Shown here one piece after another: positions 3,380-10,596 of a stretch of 55,109 nt of DNA. The notes beneath the pieces were generated by a model, which saw only the letters and a program-made list of their open reading frames with translations, was not told the origin of the DNA and did not search any database. The stretch comes from an uncultured Opitutia bacterium (GTDB taxonomy: Bacteria; Verrucomicrobiota; Verrucomicrobiia; Opitutales; Opitutaceae). Numbering within the stretch: the first letter of the stretch is position 1; each line of letters starts with the position of its first letter. A program made the translations under genes and the position numbers. The stretch spans positions 1 to 55,109 of the forward strand of contig CAIKHO010000033.1 in assembly GCA_903827245.1 (NCBI GenBank). Direction: 5' to 3'.

Positions 3380-4609
3380 TTACGATCCGCTGAAAAATTT
3401 CAGAATTCTCCGCAGCGACGCCACCAGCACGTCGATTTCCTCCGGCGTGTTGTAGACGTAGAAGCTGGCCCGGGTCGTGCCGGTCAGGCCGAGCTTGCGC
3501 ATCAGCGGCTGGTTGCAGTGGTGGCCGCCGCGGAGCGCGATGCCGTCCTCGTCGGCGAAGGTCACGATGTCGTGCGCATGCACGTCTGCGAACGCGAAGC
3601 TCACGAGGCCGCCGCGCGGGCCGGTTTTCGGCCCGAGCAGCCGGATGCCGGGCAGCACGGAGAGTTTTTCGTAGGCGAGCCGCCCGAGCTCGCTGTCGTG
3701 CCGGGCGATCCGGTCGCGACCGAGCGCATCGAGATAGTCGCAGGCGGCCGTGAGCGTGACCGCGTCGCCGAAGTTGGGCGTGCCCGCCTCGAAGCGCTCG
3801 GGCGACGGCTTCCAGCGGCTCTCGAAGAAATCGACGCTGGAGATCATGCCGCCGCCGCCCTGGTAGGGTGGCATGGCGTCGAGCAGCGCGCGGCGTCCGT
3901 AGAGCGCGCCGATCCCGGTGACGGCGCCCATTTTGTGGCCGGAAAAGGCGTAGAAGTCGCAACCGAGGGCGCGGACGTCGACCGGCAAGTGGCCGATGGA
4001 CTGTGCCCCGTCGATCACGGTGATGGCACCGATTTTTTTCGCGCGGGCGCAGAGCTCGGCGACGGGATTGATCGTGCCGAGCGAATTGGAAATGTGCGTG
4101 AAGGCGAAGACCTTCACCTCCGGCGTGAGGACGCGGTCCAGTTGGGCGAGATCCAGCAGCCCCTCATCACCGGTGACCGGGAGGTAGCGGAGCTTCGCGC
4201 CGGTGCGCTGGGCGATGAGCTGCCAGGGCACGAGATTGGAGTGGTGCTCCATCTCGGTGAGGAGGATGACGTCGCCGGCCTTCAGGTGGGCGCTGCCCCA
4301 GCTGGCGGCGACCAGGTTGATCGACTCCGTGGTGCCGCGGGTGAAAATGATCTCCTCGGACGCGGCGGCGTTGAGGAATTGCGCGACCCGGGCGCGGGCG
4401 CCCTCGTAGGCATCGGTCGCGCGCATCGAGAGCGCGTGGAGGCCGCGATGGACGTTCGCGTTGTCGCGTTCGTAGAAATGACTGAGCGCGTCGATCACGG
4501 CGCGCGGCCTCTGCGTGGTGGCGGCGTTGTCGAGGTAGACGAGCGGCTTGCCGTTGACCTGCTGATGCAGGGCGGGGAAGTCGTCGCGGAGGGTGGACCA
4601 GTTGGGCAT
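3380..4609 (-). CDS. sufS: Cysteine desulfurase SufS
   Basis: This is a PLP enzyme that takes sulfur from L-cysteine for iron-sulfur cluster assembly. The 409-residue protein starts at MPNWSTLRDDFPALHQQ, and the length is normal for SufS. Visible landmarks are H122-H123 in the EHHSN motif, the PLP lysine K226 in FSGHKMG, and the persulfide cysteine C365 in RGGHHCNQPLM. The short-loop RxGHHC-x-QP form marks the group II (SufS) class rather than IscS. An upstream in-frame ATG at 4651 is disfavoured because the extra residues come from a repeat. sufU lies 68 bases upstream on the same strand, so the sulfur donor and its acceptor are paired. The rest of a suf operon is not in the window. Confidence 0.95.
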   Translation of the reverse strand: MPNWSTLRDDFPALHQQVNGKPLVYLDNAATTQRPRAVIDALSHFYERDNANVHRGLHALSMRATDAYEGARARVAQFLNAAASEEIIFTRGTTESINLVAASWGSAHLKAGDVILLTEMEHHSNLVPWQLIAQRTGAKLRYLPVTGDEGLLDLAQLDRVLTPEVKVFAFTHISNSLGTINPVAELCARAKKIGAITVIDGAQSIGHLPVDVRALGCDFYAFSGHKMGAVTGIGALYGRRALLDAMPPYQGGGGMISSVDFFESRWKPSPERFEAGTPNFGDAVTLTAACDYLDALGRDRIARHDSELGRLAYEKLSVLPGIRLLGPKTGPRGGLVSFAFADVHAHDIVTFADEDGIALRGGHHCNQPLMRKLGLTGTTRASFYVYNTPEEIDVLVASLRRILKFFSGS

Positions 4610-4612
4610 GGA

Positions 4613-4677
4613 AATCGTTCTCGTTCTCTTAATCGTTCCTCGTTCTCGCATCCTTCCCGTCGAGAACGAGAACGATA
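4613..4677. repeat. GTTCTCG-type inverted repeat, copy 2
   Basis: ATCGTTCTCGTTCTC is matched by GAGAACGAGAACGAT at the other end. The element fills the whole sufU-sufS spacer and ends 3 bases before the sufS start codon. Any ribosome binding site for sufS must therefore be made of repeat sequence. Confidence 0.8.
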
Positions 4678-5130
4678 TCAGTCAGTATGGCTCTCCGTCG
4701 TGGCCGGCGCCGGGTCGCCCTTGAGCGCGTTGAGCGCGGCGTGCCAGCCGAGGGTGGCGCACTTGATGCGCGCGGGGAAGGCGTGCACGCCGGCGAAGGC
4801 GCCCACGTCGCTGATTTCCTCCGGCTCCTTGCCGGTGGTGACGATGTCGTGGAATTCCGCGTAGAGCTTTTCCGCCTCGGCGGCGGTCTTGCCCTTGAGC
4901 CGCGTGGTCATCAGCGACGCGCTGGCCTGGGAGATGGCGCAGCCGGAGCCGTCGAAGGAGATCTCGGCGATCCGGTCGCCGTCGACGCGCAGGTAAACGT
5001 CGCATTGGTCGCCGCAGGTCGGGTTGTCGCCATGCGCGACGCGGTTGGCGCTCGGCAGTTTGCCCCGATTTCGCGGCCGGCGGTTGTGGTCGAGGATGAC
5101 CTGCTGGTAAAGGTCGGTGAGGTCGGACAT
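4678..5130 (-). CDS. sufU: Iron-sulfur assembly sulfurtransferase SufU
   Basis: A 150-residue IscU-fold protein that accepts persulfide sulfur from SufS. C39, D41, C64 and C124 (in PTCGDQC, GSGCAIS and RIKCATL) line up with the zinc ligands and catalytic cysteine of SufU. The long segment between the second and third cysteines separates SufU from IscU. It sits directly upstream of sufS and is likely co-transcribed with it. The gene pair without sufBCD implies that the scaffold genes are elsewhere. Confidence 0.93.
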   Translation of the reverse strand: MSDLTDLYQQVILDHNRRPRNRGKLPSANRVAHGDNPTCGDQCDVYLRVDGDRIAEISFDGSGCAISQASASLMTTRLKGKTAAEAEKLYAEFHDIVTTGKEPEEISDVGAFAGVHAFPARIKCATLGWHAALNALKGDPAPATTESHTD

Positions 5131-5325: not shown

Positions 5326-5769
5326 ATGAAGCGCCCGCGTCCTGCCATCCCCGCACCCGTGGTCGTCGGCCTGGTCCTGGCCATCGTGCTGGACACGGTT
5401 ATCCAGATCACCTGGAAGCTGGCAGTCGCCGGCGTCCCGGTTGGTGCCTCGGCCTCCGCCACGATCCGGGCCGCGCTTTCCAGCTATTATTTTTACGCGG
5501 CGATGCTCGCTTTTGTCGCGCAGCTCTTCAACTGGATGCGGGTGCTCGCCCGGGCCGATCTCAGTTTTGCCCAGCCGTTCACCGCCCTGAGCTATATCAC
5601 GGTGCTGACGATCTCCAGCCGCGTGCTGCATGAATCCCTGCCGGTTTCCAAGATCCTTGGGGTCGTCCTGATCCTCCTCGGGGTTTTCTTCATCAGCCGG
5701 ACCCCGAGTTCCACCGCGGGCGACGGGGCCGGCGCGACCGGGCGGACATCCGATCCGGACGCCACATGA
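5326..5769 (+). CDS. Small EamA/SMR-like membrane protein, first of a pair
   Basis: 147 residues with four hydrophobic segments, roughly residues 10-33, 53-75, 88-107 and 110-130. ADLSFAQPFTALSYI before the third helix is the usual signature of half-size EamA/SMR-type transporters such as ArnE/ArnF-like flippase subunits. I start at the ATG at 5326. The open frame upstream is an antisense shadow of sufU. Its stop overlaps the next gene, which codes for a second protein of the same kind, so the two probably form a heterodimer. The substrate is unknown; the linked aminotransferase and acyltransferase suggest an amino-modified lipid or sugar-lipid, which is inference. Confidence 0.72.
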   Translation: MKRPRPAIPAPVVVGLVLAIVLDTVIQITWKLAVAGVPVGASASATIRAALSSYYFYAAMLAFVAQLFNWMRVLARADLSFAQPFTALSYITVLTISSRVLHESLPVSKILGVVLILLGVFFISRTPSSTAGDGAGATGRTSDPDAT

Positions 5770-6146
5770 CGAATCAACTGACAGGCCTCATCATGCTGGT
5801 CGCCGCGGTGACGGTCGAAAGCTTTGCGCAGATCTCATTGAAGATCGGGGCCGGCGGCGGGCCGGGCGTCCTGTGCCCGCCCTACCGACTCCATGCCGGC
5901 AGGTATCGCCTCGGTTCCTCGCCGGGCGCCTGGGTGACGCTGGGGGTGCTGTTTTACGGACTGGAGATATTCTTCTACACGCGGGCCCTGAGCTGTCTGG
6001 ACGTGAGTGTCGCGTTTCCCCTCGGCAGCCTGTGCTTCGTGGGGGTGGCGATCCTCTCGAAGGTGTTCCTGGGCGAGATCGTGTCGGGCGTCCGCTGGCT
6101 CGGCGTCGGCTGCATTCTGGCGGGCACGGTCTGCCTGACCCTGTGA
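5766..6146 (+). CDS. Small EamA/SMR-like membrane protein, second of a pair
   Basis: 126 residues with four hydrophobic segments. The glutamate in TVESFAQISLKIG sits in the first helix, where SMR proteins carry their essential acid. A longer, positively charged loop follows helix 1. The ATG overlaps the stop of the previous gene by four bases (ATGA), which implies translational coupling. Half-size EamA proteins work as dimers, so this gene and the previous one are likely the two subunits of one transporter or flippase. The acyltransferase gene follows after two bases. Confidence 0.7.
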   Translation: MTNQLTGLIMLVAAVTVESFAQISLKIGAGGGPGVLCPPYRLHAGRYRLGSSPGAWVTLGVLFYGLEIFFYTRALSCLDVSVAFPLGSLCFVGVAILSKVFLGEIVSGVRWLGVGCILAGTVCLTL

Positions 6147-6148
6147 TC

Positions 6149-7324
6149 ATGGCTGTCGACGGAAAACAGGTGGAGGTCGTGTTTGTCGGGAGCTTCGGCG
6201 AGATCGACCAAAAGCTCTGGCAAAGGTGCTTTCCGCCGCCGCTCGAGGGGCGGTTCTGGTACGAGACGATGGAAACCTGCGGGCTGGAGGATCAGTTCAC
6301 CTTCCATTACGCGGTGATTCGGCGGGCCGGCGAGCCGATCGGCATCGTGCCCTGTTTTATCCACAACGTGCCGATCGCCCTGGTGGCGCCGCCTCCCGTG
6401 GCGCTCGCGCTTAATCTGCTCTCGAAGGTGTTTCCGCGGGTGGGCTACCAGCGGACCTTCTTTGTCGGGTCGCCGTGCTCCGATGAAGGGACGATCGGCC
6501 TGGTGCCCGGGGTCGACCTGGCGGACGTGGCCGACGAGATCGGCCGGGCGGTGCGGCAGGAGGCGCGCAAGTGGAAGGCGCCGATGATCGTGTTCAAGGA
6601 CTTTCCCGCCGGCAGTTTTGCCGCGTTGCGCGGCCTGATGACAAAGGGGGGATTTTTCCGCGTGGTCAGTTACCCGGGCACGACGGTCGCGCTCCCGGCG
6701 CCGGACAAGAACGCATACCTCCAGGCGCTGGCGCACACGCAAAGGCACAACCTGCGGAAAAAACTGCGCCGCTCCCAGGAATTGCTCGCCCTGGAGACCA
6801 GCGTGGTGGAGCGGCCATCAGCTAGGGAACTGGACGAGATCATGGGCCTGTTCCTGCAGACCTACGAGAAAGGTCGGACAAAGTTCGAACGACTCGACCG
6901 GCGGTTTTTCGAGCGTATCGGTGCGCAGCCCCCAGCGCGTTTCATCCTGCAGCGGGAAAAGACGACCGGCCGGCTGGTGACCTTCATGCTCGTGTTTTGC
7001 GACGGCGGGCGGGTGACGAACAAGTTCATCGGCATCGATTACGAACGGGCGGGCAAGACGTACCTCTATTTCCGGCTTTTTGACGCTGCCCTCGATTTTG
7101 CCTACGCCGGCGGCGCCAAGGAATTGCAGAGCGGGCAGACCGGATACCGGGCGAAGCTGGATCTCGGCCACCGGCTGGTGCCGCTCTTCAACGGGGTGCG
7201 TCACTCCAATCCTTTGGTGAACGTGATCTTCCGCCTCATCGGCACCCGGGTGACCTGGCAATCACTGGACCCGGACCTGGCGACCTACCTGCGGGCGCAT
7301 CCCGAATGCGATTTGGGCAGGTGA
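6149..7324 (+). CDS. FemAB/GNAT-like acyltransferase (BioF2-like or peptidogalycan type)
   Basis: 391 residues, starting at the ATG two bases after the previous stop. The C-terminal half (about 220-370) has the look of a GNAT/FemAB domain: TQRHNLRKKLRRS, a FLQTYEKGRTKF segment, RFILQREKTTGRLVTFML and KELQSGQTGYRAKLDLGH. Proteins of this kind move acyl or aminoacyl groups onto amines. The N-terminal 200 residues are compatible with a second GNAT-like fold. The gene is coupled to two small membrane proteins upstream and followed at 267 bases by a hydrolase-phosphatase-aminotransferase block. I infer that it acylates the amine made there. The exact family was not confirmed. Confidence 0.65.
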   Translation: MAVDGKQVEVVFVGSFGEIDQKLWQRCFPPPLEGRFWYETMETCGLEDQFTFHYAVIRRAGEPIGIVPCFIHNVPIALVAPPPVALALNLLSKVFPRVGYQRTFFVGSPCSDEGTIGLVPGVDLADVADEIGRAVRQEARKWKAPMIVFKDFPAGSFAALRGLMTKGGFFRVVSYPGTTVALPAPDKNAYLQALAHTQRHNLRKKLRRSQELLALETSVVERPSARELDEIMGLFLQTYEKGRTKFERLDRRFFERIGAQPPARFILQREKTTGRLVTFMLVFCDGGRVTNKFIGIDYERAGKTYLYFRLFDAALDFAYAGGAKELQSGQTGYRAKLDLGHRLVPLFNGVRHSNPLVNVIFRLIGTRVTWQSLDPDLATYLRAHPECDLGR

Positions 7325-7591
7325 CATGTGGCGGCGCGAATGGCACGCGTGCCTGTCCGCGTTGAATCTTGCAAACCCGGGCGAAAGGCAATGAATCGAC
7401 CCTTCTCGTGCAAAACCAACCAGCAATCATGGGCGCGTCCGGACCGCATGCGGACTTTGGCCTTTGCTCATCGGCACCGATGAATAAATCTGGCCTCCAT
7501 CCCACCGAGCGGCTCCACCCCCAGTCGGCCGCCTGGTCACTCTCTGCTGCAGGACAGGATGGGAGCCCTGCGACCATCGCTTGGAGTTCGA

Positions 7592-8458
7592 ATGCCCCTC
7601 GTCTTTTCGCTTGATCGTAACACCCCTCCCGGTGCCAGTTCCGCCGCGGATGATGATATCGTGCTGCGAGGCCATCTCCGCACCACGATCATCCTCATTC
7701 ACGGGCTGACGGGTACGCCGAATGAAATGCGGTACCTGGCGTTTTACTTCAACAAGCTCGGCTACACCGCCATCTGCCCGCGGCTGGCCAATCACGGCGA
7801 GTCCCTGAACGTCCTCAAGCACACCACCTGGGAGGAGCTCTATACGCCGCTCCGGATCCTGTTCCTGAAATCGCTCGAAACGGGCGACCGGGTTTTTGTG
7901 GCCGGGCTGTCCATGAGCGCGCTGTTTGTCCTGCTCCTGGCCGAGCAGTTCGGGTCGAAGCTGGCGGGCGGGATCTGCCTCGCCCCGACGCTCTTTTTCG
8001 ACGGCTGGAATGTGCCGTGGTACAACCGGCTCCTGCCCCTGGCTTCCTATACCCCGCTCAAGTACAGCTTTTACTTCAAGGAAGGCCCGCCTTACGGGAT
8101 CAAGAACGAGAAGATTCGCGGGATGGTCCACCGCTACTACAGCAAGGCGAAGCTCGAGGACACTGAGGGTGTCGCCAAGTACGGGTACCCGTTTTTTCCG
8201 GTTTCCCTGTTTTATCAGCTGCACCGGCTGGCCGGGAAGGTCACGCCCCTGCTGGACCGGATCAAGGCCCCGATGCTCCTCATCCATCCGCAGGAGGATG
8301 ACACCGCCAGCGTCAAGAACTCGCAGCTGATCTACGACCGTATTTCCTCCACCGACAAGAAACTCGTCATCCTGACCAACTCCTATCACGTCATCACCGC
8401 CGACCAGGAGCGGGAGAAGGTCGCGATCGAGATGAAGGAATTCATGGATCCGCAATGA
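7592..8458 (+). CDS. Alpha/beta hydrolase (Est30-like)
   Basis: 288 residues from the ATG at 7592; an upstream start at 7559 is possible. The fold is clear: LIHGLTGTP oxyanion-hole motif near residue 36, nucleophile elbow AGLSMSA with S107, a late aspartate in HPQEDD and the catalytic histidine in NSYHVITAD. The order and the SYH-x-x-x-x-D ending match carboxylesterase Est30 and monoacylglycerol-lipase-like enzymes. The elbow reads G-x-S-x-S instead of the usual G-x-S-x-G. No signal peptide is seen, so it acts in the cytoplasm. Its stop overlaps the start of the phosphatase gene. Likely role: hydrolysis of an acyl ester or amide intermediate. Confidence 0.8.
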   Translation: MPLVFSLDRNTPPGASSAADDDIVLRGHLRTTIILIHGLTGTPNEMRYLAFYFNKLGYTAICPRLANHGESLNVLKHTTWEELYTPLRILFLKSLETGDRVFVAGLSMSALFVLLLAEQFGSKLAGGICLAPTLFFDGWNVPWYNRLLPLASYTPLKYSFYFKEGPPYGIKNEKIRGMVHRYYSKAKLEDTEGVAKYGYPFFPVSLFYQLHRLAGKVTPLLDRIKAPMLLIHPQEDDTASVKNSQLIYDRISSTDKKLVILTNSYHVITADQEREKVAIEMKEFMDPQ

Positions 8459-9114
8459 AGACCGCCGCGCCGTTCGAGTTCTACATCGATTTCGACAACA
8501 CGATCACGGAAATCGACATCCTGGATGACATCATCCAGCGCTTTTCCATCAACGACGACTGGAAGCGCGTGGAAGAGGCCTGGGAGGCCGGCGAAATCGG
8601 CTCGCGGGAGTGCCTGGAGCGGCAGTTTGCGCAGGTCCGGGTGTCCGGGCCGGCCTTTCAGGACTACCTGCGGACCATCCGGATCGACCCGGCCTTCGCG
8701 CCGATCATCGCGCTCGTGCGCGACAAGGGGATCGAGCCGGTCATCCTGAGCGACAGCTTCACGATGATCATCACGAAGGTGCTCGAGCACCACGGCGTGA
8801 CCGGGATCAGGACCATCTCCAATGAAATGCAGCTGGAAGGGGACCGGCCCCGGGTGTCCTTCCCCCATTTTCACGCGATCTGCACCAAGTGCGGCAACTG
8901 CAAGACCTCGCACCTCATCCAGCGCAACCGGCCGGCGGGCACGCGGAAGATCTACGTGGGCGACGGCCAGTCTGACATCTGCCCCGCCGGTTTCTGCGAA
9001 ATCCTGTTTGCGAAGGGCCGCCTTTTCAAACACTACTCGCCCCTCCGGAAGGACTGCATTCCGTTTCAACACCTCGGGACGGTCCACGCCGAACTCCAGC
9101 GCCTTTTAAAATGA
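8455..9114 (+). CDS. HAD-IB phosphatase, MtnX/SerB-like
   Basis: 219 residues, start overlapping the previous stop (ATGA). HAD motifs are in order: DFDNTIT (nucleophile D12, acid D14), ILSDSF for motif II, and a YVGDGQSD acidic motif. CTKCGNCK near residue 145 is the cysteine-bearing insertion known from MtnX-type diketo-methylthiopentyl phosphate phosphatases and relatives, and it may bind a metal. It removes a phosphate from a small metabolite. No other methionine-salvage gene is present, so an MtnX function is unlikely here. It overlaps the aminotransferase gene downstream. Confidence 0.83.
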   Translation: MKTAAPFEFYIDFDNTITEIDILDDIIQRFSINDDWKRVEEAWEAGEIGSRECLERQFAQVRVSGPAFQDYLRTIRIDPAFAPIIALVRDKGIEPVILSDSFTMIITKVLEHHGVTGIRTISNEMQLEGDRPRVSFPHFHAICTKCGNCKTSHLIQRNRPAGTRKIYVGDGQSDICPAGFCEILFAKGRLFKHYSPLRKDCIPFQHLGTVHAELQRLLK

Positions 9115-10517
9115 AACCATCCGCACCCGCGAAGCCGGCCGAAAACGAAACGACCGAGAACCTGCTCGAGCTTGAGGCGAAGTACTGCTCGTGGGGCGAC
9201 ACGGTCCATTACGCGAAGGAGCTGACGATGTTCTCCCGCTCGGAGGGGACGTACCTTTACGACGACAAGGGCACGCAGTACCTCGACCTGCAGATGTGGT
9301 ATTCCGCGGTCAATTTCGGCTACGGCAACCCGCGGCTGAATGCCGCGTTGAAGCAGCAGATGGACACCCTGCCGCAGCTGGCCTGCCAGTACCTGCACAA
9401 GGAGAAGATCCTGCTCGCGACCAAGCTGGCGCGGAAGGTCGAGTCCGTGTTCGGCGAGAAGGGCCGCATCCATTTCAACGTCGGCGGCGCCAGCGCGATC
9501 GAGGACGCGTGGAAGGTCGCCCGCATCAAGACGAAGAAGAATTTGGCCTTCGCCTTCATGGGCGGCTACCACGGCCGCACCTTGGGCGCCTCGGCCATCA
9601 CGTCGAGCTACCGTTACCGCGAGAAGTTCGGCCATTTCGGCGACCGGGCGAACTTCATCCCGTATCCCTACTGCTTCCGCTGCCCCTACAACATGAAGCG
9701 CGAGTCCTGTGACATGTACTGCCTGAAGCAGTTCGAGCGCCTGTTCGAGACCGAGTATTACGGGGTCGTGAACAAGACGGGCAACGCCGAGTTCGGCGCC
9801 TTCTTCATCGAGGCCGTGCAGGGCACCGGCGGCTACGTCGTGCCCCCGGCGCAGTATTTCCCGGGCCTCAAGAAGATCCTCGACCAGCACGGCATCCTGC
9901 TGGTCGACGACGAAATCCAGATGGGCTTTTACCGCACGGGCAAGTTCTTCGCCCTCGAAAATTTCGGGGTGAAGCCCGACGTCATCGTCTTCGGCAAGGC
10001 CCTGACCAACGGCATGAACCCGATCTCCGCCATCTGGGCGCGCGAGGATCTCATCTCGCCCGCCGTGTTTCCCCCGGGGACCACGCACTCGACCTTTTCC
10101 TCGAACACCCTTGGCACCGCCGTGGCCCTGGAGACGGTCAACCTCATGGAGGAGGAGGATTTTGAAACCCGCGTCATGCAGCGCGGCGCCTATTTCCTTG
10201 GGCGCCTCAAGGAGCTCGCGAAAAAATACCCGCAGATGGGCGATGTCGACGGTCTCGGCCTGGCCCTGCGCATCGAGATGTGCCAGCGCGACGGCTACAC
10301 GCCGAACCGCGAGCTCACGGATGTCATCATGAACATCGGCCTCAGTGGCACCCTGACCGCCGGCGGCGGGAAGATGGGCCTGATCCTCGACGTCGGCGGC
10401 TACTACAAGAACGTGTTCACCATCGCCCCGTCGCTCTACATTACGGAGAAGGAGATCGATACCGCGATCGAGCTGTTCGAGGAAGCCCTCAAGCGCGGCA
10501 TCGCCGAGACGGAGTAA
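9111..10517 (+). CDS. Class III PLP-dependent aminotransferase
   Basis: 468 residues. Class III landmarks are present: FNVGGASAIEDAWK, GGYHGRTLGAS, the cofactor-binding D267 in VDDEIQMGFYRTG, and the PLP lysine K296 in VFGKALTNGMNP. A C-x2-C-x8-C-x3-C cluster (C188, C191, C200, C204) follows IPYPY; comparable cysteine clusters occur in some omega-aminotransferases of this class. It converts an aldehyde or ketone into an amine, or the reverse. The start overlaps the phosphatase stop. Hydrolase, phosphatase and aminotransferase thus form one coupled operon, presumably making an amino compound. The substrate cannot be named from sequence alone. Confidence 0.88.
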   Translation: MKPSAPAKPAENETTENLLELEAKYCSWGDTVHYAKELTMFSRSEGTYLYDDKGTQYLDLQMWYSAVNFGYGNPRLNAALKQQMDTLPQLACQYLHKEKILLATKLARKVESVFGEKGRIHFNVGGASAIEDAWKVARIKTKKNLAFAFMGGYHGRTLGASAITSSYRYREKFGHFGDRANFIPYPYCFRCPYNMKRESCDMYCLKQFERLFETEYYGVVNKTGNAEFGAFFIEAVQGTGGYVVPPAQYFPGLKKILDQHGILLVDDEIQMGFYRTGKFFALENFGVKPDVIVFGKALTNGMNPISAIWAREDLISPAVFPPGTTHSTFSSNTLGTAVALETVNLMEEEDFETRVMQRGAYFLGRLKELAKKYPQMGDVDGLGLALRIEMCQRDGYTPNRELTDVIMNIGLSGTLTAGGGKMGLILDVGGYYKNVFTIAPSLYITEKEIDTAIELFEEALKRGIAETE

Positions 10518-10530
10518 GAGTTTCCCAATA

Positions 10531-10596
10531 TAGGAGCGGCTTTACGCCGCGAGGATTGTCCTTTTACGGGACTGTCGCGGCATAAGGCCGCTCCTC
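10531..10596. repeat. REP-like palindrome, family A copy 2
   Basis: TAGGAGCGGCTTTACGCCGC pairs with CGGCATAAGGCCGCTCCT. It follows the aminotransferase stop by 13 bases and may end that transcript. Confidence 0.88.

Follow-up and report, generated by a model that had tools for sequence, protein, structure and literature searches.

A run of six open reading frames lies at positions 5326 to 10517 on the forward strand of a 55,109-nucleotide stretch of DNA from an uncultured Opitutia bacterium (contig CAIKHO010000033.1, hereafter the window), and the starts and stops of all six were confirmed on the sequence. The run opens with two half-size membrane proteins of the DMT superfamily, EamA1 (5326-5769, 147 amino acids), proposed as the first half of a flippase pair, and EamA2 (5766-6146, 126 amino acids), followed by a FemAB-like tandem-GNAT transferase (6149-7324, 391 amino acids), a putative N-acyl or aminoacyl transferase. 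After a gap of 267 bp come an alpha/beta hydrolase (7592-8458, 288 amino acids), an MtnX-like HAD-IB phosphatase (8455-9114, 219 amino acids) and a class III aminotransferase (9111-10517, 468 amino acids). ATGA overlaps at 5766-5769, 8455-8458 and 9111-9114 join the two EamA genes, the hydrolase to the phosphatase and the phosphatase to the aminotransferase, and EamA2 is separated from the FemAB-like gene by two bases (6147-6148). The single-strand arrangement and tight junctions described in the initial annotation are thus borne out by the coordinates.

The six genes are inherited together. In a panel of 95 genomes (the window's own and its relatives), with presence scored at E 1e-10, the HAD phosphatase was found in five genomes and the FemAB-like gene in five, and these are the identical five, belonging to five different genera. 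The probability that two random five-genome sets coincide among 95 is 1.7e-8, ignoring phylogeny, for which none of the counts given here is corrected. Neither was detected at this threshold in the remaining two members of the window's own genus, one of them only 72% complete. Rather than being scattered in all relatives, the six genes stand together in genomes G022, G026 and G039, the latter two from the same family as the window genome, and at loci L052, L055 and L085. Their arrangement differs from case to case: G022 and G026 have the single-strand order acyl carrier protein (ACP), ketosynthase, hydrolase, phosphatase, aminotransferase, EamA1, EamA2 and FemAB; in G039, EamA1, EamA2 and FemAB run convergently to the rest of the set; and the Parachlamydiales contig L085 has EamA1, EamA2, FemAB, aminotransferase, hydrolase and phosphatase in one row. 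In G059 the set is split into two triplets on separate contigs, with a ketosynthase and an ACP adjoining the aminotransferase, and the EamA1 and EamA2 orthologues are paired in L012, L013, L014 and L016. As order and distance are reshuffled yet all members are retained, linkage breaks and re-forms while the set persists. This co-occurrence and reshuffling lend strong support to the earlier proposal of a single pathway for the six genes. The two coupled blocks into which it grouped them, present in the window, are not a fixed division, as order and distance vary among relatives.

Regarding the wider distribution, a scan of a genome collection of 84,980 species with a five-sequence aminotransferase alignment matched at least 593 stretches, at least 580 of them relatives, and the analysis continued with the top 80 loci. 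Two of the loci, L049 and L059, lie on the same contigs as L014 and L013, and were counted among the 80 but excluded from the neighbour clustering and from the count of 78 genomes. Judged by their labels, the kept loci belong to Opitutae, Omnitrophota, Acidobacteria, Delta-, Alpha- and Gammaproteobacteria, Legionella, Extensimonas, Telmatospirillum, Magnetococcales, Gemmatimonadaceae and Parachlamydiales. Of the 80, 78 have a phosphatase homologue close to the aminotransferase, and in the two misses (L042 and L046) the aminotransferase is less than 100 bases from a contig end. The FemAB-like gene was found at E 1e-20 in 36/41 and 14/37 aminotransferase-bearing genomes (50/78 together); many loci end at contig ends, so that absences in these and in the neighbour counts are partly assembly gaps. 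In Legionella, the aminotransferase, phosphatase and hydrolase occur together in L090 (5845-12970) and L093 (10001-12867), the former additionally holding FemAB-like, EamA, arginase-like and DegT genes.

The set is also found on plasmids. Among 72,556 plasmid records, the aminotransferase was detected in 34 at 1e-60 and the FemAB-like gene in 49 at 1e-5, and the two genes occur together on 33 of the 34 aminotransferase plasmids, their starts separated by 1.1 to 4.6 kb. These 33 records span six genera and include several near-duplicate strains, thus not representing 33 independent events. The remaining plasmid, from Xanthomonas sacchari, has a nearby annotated GNAT gene scoring 267 bits against the family profile. 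Five of the 16 records with only the FemAB-like gene were viewed, from Roseomonas mucosa, Aureimonas, Nostoc, Eleftheria and Streptomyces, the last unannotated in that region. The Roseomonas mucosa and Aureimonas plasmids have these gene types too, but their class III aminotransferase is another one, with 23-24% identity to that of the window; on those of Nostoc and Eleftheria, lipid-like clusters of other kinds are present. The Nostoc cluster (L121, 2413-16660) comprises two SDR-type reductases, a nitric oxide synthase oxygenase, a desaturase, a class III aminotransferase, a GNAT protein, an acyl dehydrogenase, a glycosyltransferase, a formyltransferase and a DevC/DevA-type exporter; its GNAT protein is of the same family (190 bits), a reductase of the cluster carries PF07993 and its aminotransferase is nearest to putrescine aminotransferase and PigE. 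The Eleftheria plasmid (L122, 6912-11876) has in a row an alpha-oxoamine-synthase-like gene, a methyltransferase, a GNAT protein fused to an FAD/NAD-binding domain and an SMR transporter, and this GNAT protein is more distant, scoring 78 bits against the family profile.

The families assigned to the single proteins in the initial annotation agree with their Pfam and NCBIfam scores. EamA1 and EamA2 reach 30.3 and 31.1 bits with PF00892 (cutoff 28.2), and their best NCBIfam models are ArnF for EamA1 (37.3 bits, cutoff 99) and ArnE for EamA2 (35.1 bits, cutoff 92). The aminotransferase scores 270.9 bits with PF00202 and is nearest, among solved sequences, to alanine/serine racemase and GABA-type enzymes, being under every curated NCBIfam cutoff among the best 25 of 69 matching models in the comparison with known class III enzymes (GABA, acetylornithine, BioA and others). 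Four of its residues, R156, T239, K296 and T437, are invariant (each 83/83), of which K296 is presumably the lysine that binds pyridoxal phosphate (PLP), and T239 and T437 are taken, by GabT numbering, to replace E211 and R398. In GabT, these residues bind the glutamate carboxylate; the replacement suggests that something besides the usual glutamate pair serves as amino donor or acceptor.

The phosphatase (PF06888) is above cutoff for TIGR01489 (101.1 bits, subfamily cutoff 81.55) and TIGR01488, the only cutoffs reached among the NCBIfam models listed, and is below that of the MtnX equivalog TIGR03333 (54.3 of 303.2 bits). Its nearest solved sequence is MtnX, and its model matches MtnX (2fea_A) over its length, with a TM score of 0.85 normalized by the query, D12 and D14 being conserved in 73/75 sequences. 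The hydrolase scores 67.9 bits with PF12146 (Hydrolase_4), and its nearest solved relatives are LipS (4fbl, E 6.8e-27) and thermostable monoacylglycerol lipases; S107 (44/46), D237 (46/46) and H266 (46/46) would form its catalytic triad.

The FemAB-like protein exceeds the cutoffs of PF04339 (32.3 bits, cutoff 27) and PF13480 (36.2 bits, cutoff 22), and R199, K205 and K336 are invariant in its alignment (each 27/27). It has no significant sequence match in the PDB, and the profile of the GNAT alignment gave only weak, unrelated-looking matches among PDB sequences. Its AlphaFold2 model is a tandem GNAT of high confidence (predicted local distance difference test 91.8, predicted TM score 0.90), for which Foldseek ranked FemX at the top. 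Using VIA-align, the best matches were Sbb17, a synthase of the streptothricin aminoacyl-tRNA-dependent type (Z 22.3, root-mean-square deviation (rmsd) 3.1, 276 residues aligned), FemX 6snr (Z 21.0, rmsd 4.9, 303 aligned) and 4ii9 (Z 20.5, rmsd 4.4, 303 aligned) and MprF 7duw (Z 19.4, rmsd 3.8, 268 aligned), with N-myristoyltransferase 4cax lower (Z 17.4, rmsd 4.8, 298 aligned). As both aminoacyl-tRNA users and an N-myristoyltransferase match, the fold is compatible with either kind of donor, aminoacyl or fatty-acyl; given its closeness to Fem-type enzymes and MprF, an amino acid could serve in place of a fatty acid.

Clustering of the neighbouring genes at 83 loci, with 11 of the 45 listed neighbour clusters inspected as sequences, revealed two recurrent contexts. 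The first consists of the hydrolase, FemAB and the EamA pair, to which an arginase-fold protein and a DegT-family aminotransferase are often added, the latter present in 21 of the 83 loci and at none of the Opitutae loci clustered. The second is defined by a PaaK-like AMP ligase, similar to coenzyme A ligases, at 23 loci, 17 of them labelled Acidobacteria or Terriglobia and six Omnitrophota. A ketosynthase and an ACP are common there, the hydrolase was found at no PaaK-type locus in the clustering, and 16 of the 17 Acidobacteria/Terriglobia loci have a PF06925 glycosyltransferase similar to diglucosyl-diacylglycerol synthase, with 191 of 500 bits in the one member scanned, below the equivalog cutoff. 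FemAB was found in 1 of the 23 PaaK-type genomes versus 49 of the 55 others (Fisher p 5.5e-13). As the PaaK-like ligase stands in place of FemAB, the aminotransferase and phosphatase look like an exchangeable amine-making module.

In many relatives the set is larger than in the window, through ketosynthase/ACP, arginase-fold, DegT or desaturase genes. Other genes near the set are also of lipid or export type. The Rhizobium acidisoli cluster includes a fatty acid desaturase and a cyclopropane-fatty-acyl-phospholipid synthase family protein, and TolC, ABC and periplasmic-adaptor genes lie beside the set in Agrobacterium and Xanthomonas. The ketosynthase, ACP and class III aminotransferase genes adjoin in Opitutae, some Omnitrophota, Xanthomonas and Acidobacteria, and many FemAB-type loci have no ketosynthase nearby. 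Homologues of the relatives' ketosynthase (E 1e-90) occur in 76/95 genomes, mostly without the set, and thus the ketosynthase is not specific; the ketosynthase/ACP pair, common in the taxonomic order also without the set, is less firmly tied to it than the six core genes are to one another. For the same reason, and because an SPT-like gene and an ACP-FabA fusion lie near it, an unlinked ketosynthase of the window's own genome (contig C65, 55% identity) was rejected as the missing partner. On C65 (L104, 1593-2927, 9238-10512 and 10753-11748), this SPT-like gene, an alpha-oxoamine synthase resembling serine palmitoyltransferase (SPT), lies less than 8 kb from a ketosynthase and an ACP-FabA fusion, and it scores under the SPT cutoffs. 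An ACP-ketosynthase pair of the cluster type was also seen in L116 (6200-9001) and L117 (6420-9337), beside reductase-like NAD-binding proteins (thioester-reductase-like) and MFS-like proteins, named by eye; in these two genomes HAD and FemAB were not found at E 1e-10.

Taken together, the six genes may encode one pathway that makes and translocates an amide-linked amino lipid, a reading whose probability falls just short of even. The class III aminotransferase would convert a small phosphorylated ketone or aldehyde, with dihydroxyacetone phosphate or an acylated form as the best guess, into an amino phosphate, from which the MtnX-like phosphatase would strip the phosphate to give an amino alcohol. 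A precedent is RtxA of Bradyrhizobium, which makes serinol from dihydroxyacetone phosphate by aminotransfer and dephosphorylation (PMC3222319). The tandem-GNAT enzyme would then N-acylate the amine, probably from an acyl-ACP charged, in relatives, via the dedicated ketosynthase/ACP pair, and the lipase-like hydrolase might add, exchange or remove an ester-linked chain, a guessed step. Finally, the EamA1/EamA2 pair would flip the lipid across the inner membrane. Both the lipid nature of the product and its flipping we infer from families and neighbours: the desaturase, cyclopropane synthase, ketosynthase/ACP, exporter and diacylglycerol-type glycosyltransferase, and the Nostoc and Eleftheria clusters, each give circumstantial support, and the hydrolase, being closest to lipases, also counts for the lipid. 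The division of labour proposed earlier, where aminotransferase and phosphatase yield an amine that is acylated and then flipped or exported, appears to fit the protein families.

Several observations weigh against such a pathway. In fold, the GNAT protein comes closest to enzymes that use aminoacyl-tRNA, and the EamA proteins do not reach the ArnE/ArnF cutoffs. The separation of the two contexts is incomplete, as six of the 55 non-PaaK genomes lack FemAB (L020, L024, L032, L050, L080 and L094) and one PaaK genome (L044) has it. The ketosynthase and ACP are not adjacent to the window genes, and the ketosynthase homologues are as widespread as described above. In many Omnitrophota and Proteobacteria the set comes with the arginase-fold enzyme and DegT, for which the scheme has no simple place; a search of the five Opitutae genomes, made without a positive control, gave no arginase-like gene, which was rejected on that ground as a universal partner. 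Moreover, a Bartonella plasmid retains the aminotransferase, the GNAT gene and a gene of weak similarity to arginase (20.6 bits against a cutoff of 22), and its incomplete annotation table lists neither an MtnX-like phosphatase nor an EamA gene within 12 kb.

Other explanations differ mainly in the role given to single enzymes. MprF has two halves, one making and one flipping lysyl-phosphatidylglycerol, and in a similar way the FemAB-like protein might be an aminoacyl-tRNA-dependent transferase that places an amino acid onto a lipid amine, the product being flipped by the EamA pair. The top folds (Sbb17, FemX and MprF) and the PF04339 score agree with this; however, N-myristoyltransferases, which use acyl-coenzyme A, match too, and with ketosynthase, ACP, desaturase and cyclopropane synthase genes as neighbours, a dedicated acyl chain is suggested. 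This explanation is considered unlikely. An Arn-like system, where an amino sugar or small amine on a polyprenyl carrier is flipped by EamA and decorates the cell envelope, could explain why ArnF and ArnE are the best NCBIfam matches and the presence of DegT-family aminotransferases at a quarter of the clustered loci. Nevertheless, the EamA scores are far below the respective cutoffs, no polyprenyl-phosphate glycosyltransferase was seen among the 11 of 45 neighbour clusters inspected, and no DegT was found at the Opitutae loci, making such a system improbable.

In mycosubtilin and iturin synthases, a class III AMT domain acts on a beta-ketoacyl-ACP. The aminotransferase could likewise use the beta-ketoacyl-ACP of a partner ketosynthase, yielding a beta-amino acyl chain then N-acylated by the GNAT protein. 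This would be consistent with the ketosynthase, ACP and aminotransferase occurring together in the four groups named above, and with threonines at the GabT glutamate-carboxylate positions, but it leaves the phosphatase, found near the aminotransferase at 78 of the 80 loci, without a role, and many FemAB-type loci have no ketosynthase nearby; we give it a small probability. A further alternative, that the two blocks belong to unrelated pathways and are chance neighbours in the window, could be read from the 267 bp gap, from the two contigs of G059 and from the nearest named relatives (L017-L019), on whose aminotransferase loci no FemAB match lies, though their genomes carry one. It is disfavoured by the counts, namely the identical presence in five of the 95 genomes, the joint occurrence of the six in L012-L014, L052, L055 and L085 and the 33 of 34 plasmid records, and thus seems very improbable.

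Two features border the run in the window. Directly upstream, on the opposite strand (3380-5130), are SufS-like cysteine desulfurase and SufU/IscU-like scaffold genes, named by eye. Directly after the aminotransferase gene is a REP-like palindrome (10532-10595) that folds into a strong hairpin (z -7.0), and its 21-base arm matches the genome 63 times forward and 55 times in reverse with up to two mismatches, compared to none for the reversed control.

Regarding known systems, the preferred amide-lipid pathway can be compared first with the bacterial ceramide pathway Spt/CerR/bCerS and the E. coli YghO locus. The two would have in common a PLP enzyme making an amine, an N-acyltransferase making an amide, a dedicated ACP and a product that must cross the membrane (PMC11087976, PMC9386255), and no flippase had been identified for ceramide (PMC11087976). 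The window set differs in that no SPT is found among its six genes by Pfam and NCBIfam, and in the presence of phosphatase, lipase-like hydrolase and paired EamA genes. The FemAB-like protein shows no detectable sequence relation to YghO, the E. coli acyl-coenzyme A N-acyltransferase candidate for ceramide (PMC9386255), with YghO, not Caulobacter bCerS, as the comparison. The hhalign probability is 0.7% with a single-sequence template, the BLASTP E value of the pair is 0.11, hmmsearch gave no match of FemAB-like to YghO and YghO itself matches no Pfam family at E 0.1; a ceramide synthase identity was rejected by sequence against YghO only, and a shared fold is possible.

MprF shares the tandem-GNAT catalytic domain and the flippase function proposed for the set, which differs in having separate genes, EamA-type proteins for the MprF membrane domain and, in addition, an aminotransferase and a phosphatase. 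ArnE/ArnF are likewise two adjacent half-size DMT proteins, but their partner enzymes are others than those of the window and, as seen above, the EamA scores are far from their cutoffs. RtxA combines aminotransfer and dephosphorylation to an amino alcohol in one bifunctional protein, the likeness being one of reaction type (PMC3222319). The FemABX peptidyl ligases share the fold and the PF04339 family, whereas the FemAB-like gene of the window sits among lipid-type genes. In outline, the set would work like the ceramide pathway or MprF, but the tests run do not place it in the ceramide pathway. Within the terms searched, no description of these gene combinations was found in the open-access literature; the gene set appears new, yet every protein belongs to a known superfamily.

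It is tentatively suggested, as possible rather than probable, that the set represents an undescribed SPT-independent class of membrane amide lipids, with an exchangeable aminotransferase/phosphatase module, its own EamA-pair flippase and a spread by plasmids and horizontal transfer over bacterial groups from Verrucomicrobiota to rhizobia. If true, an envelope or secreted lipid common to Omnitrophota, Opitutae and plasmids of plant-associated Alphaproteobacteria would have gone unrecognised under these genes, and an SPT-independent route to ceramide-like lipids would come with a concrete flippase candidate. The Rhizobium plasmids make this pathway testable in cultured strains.

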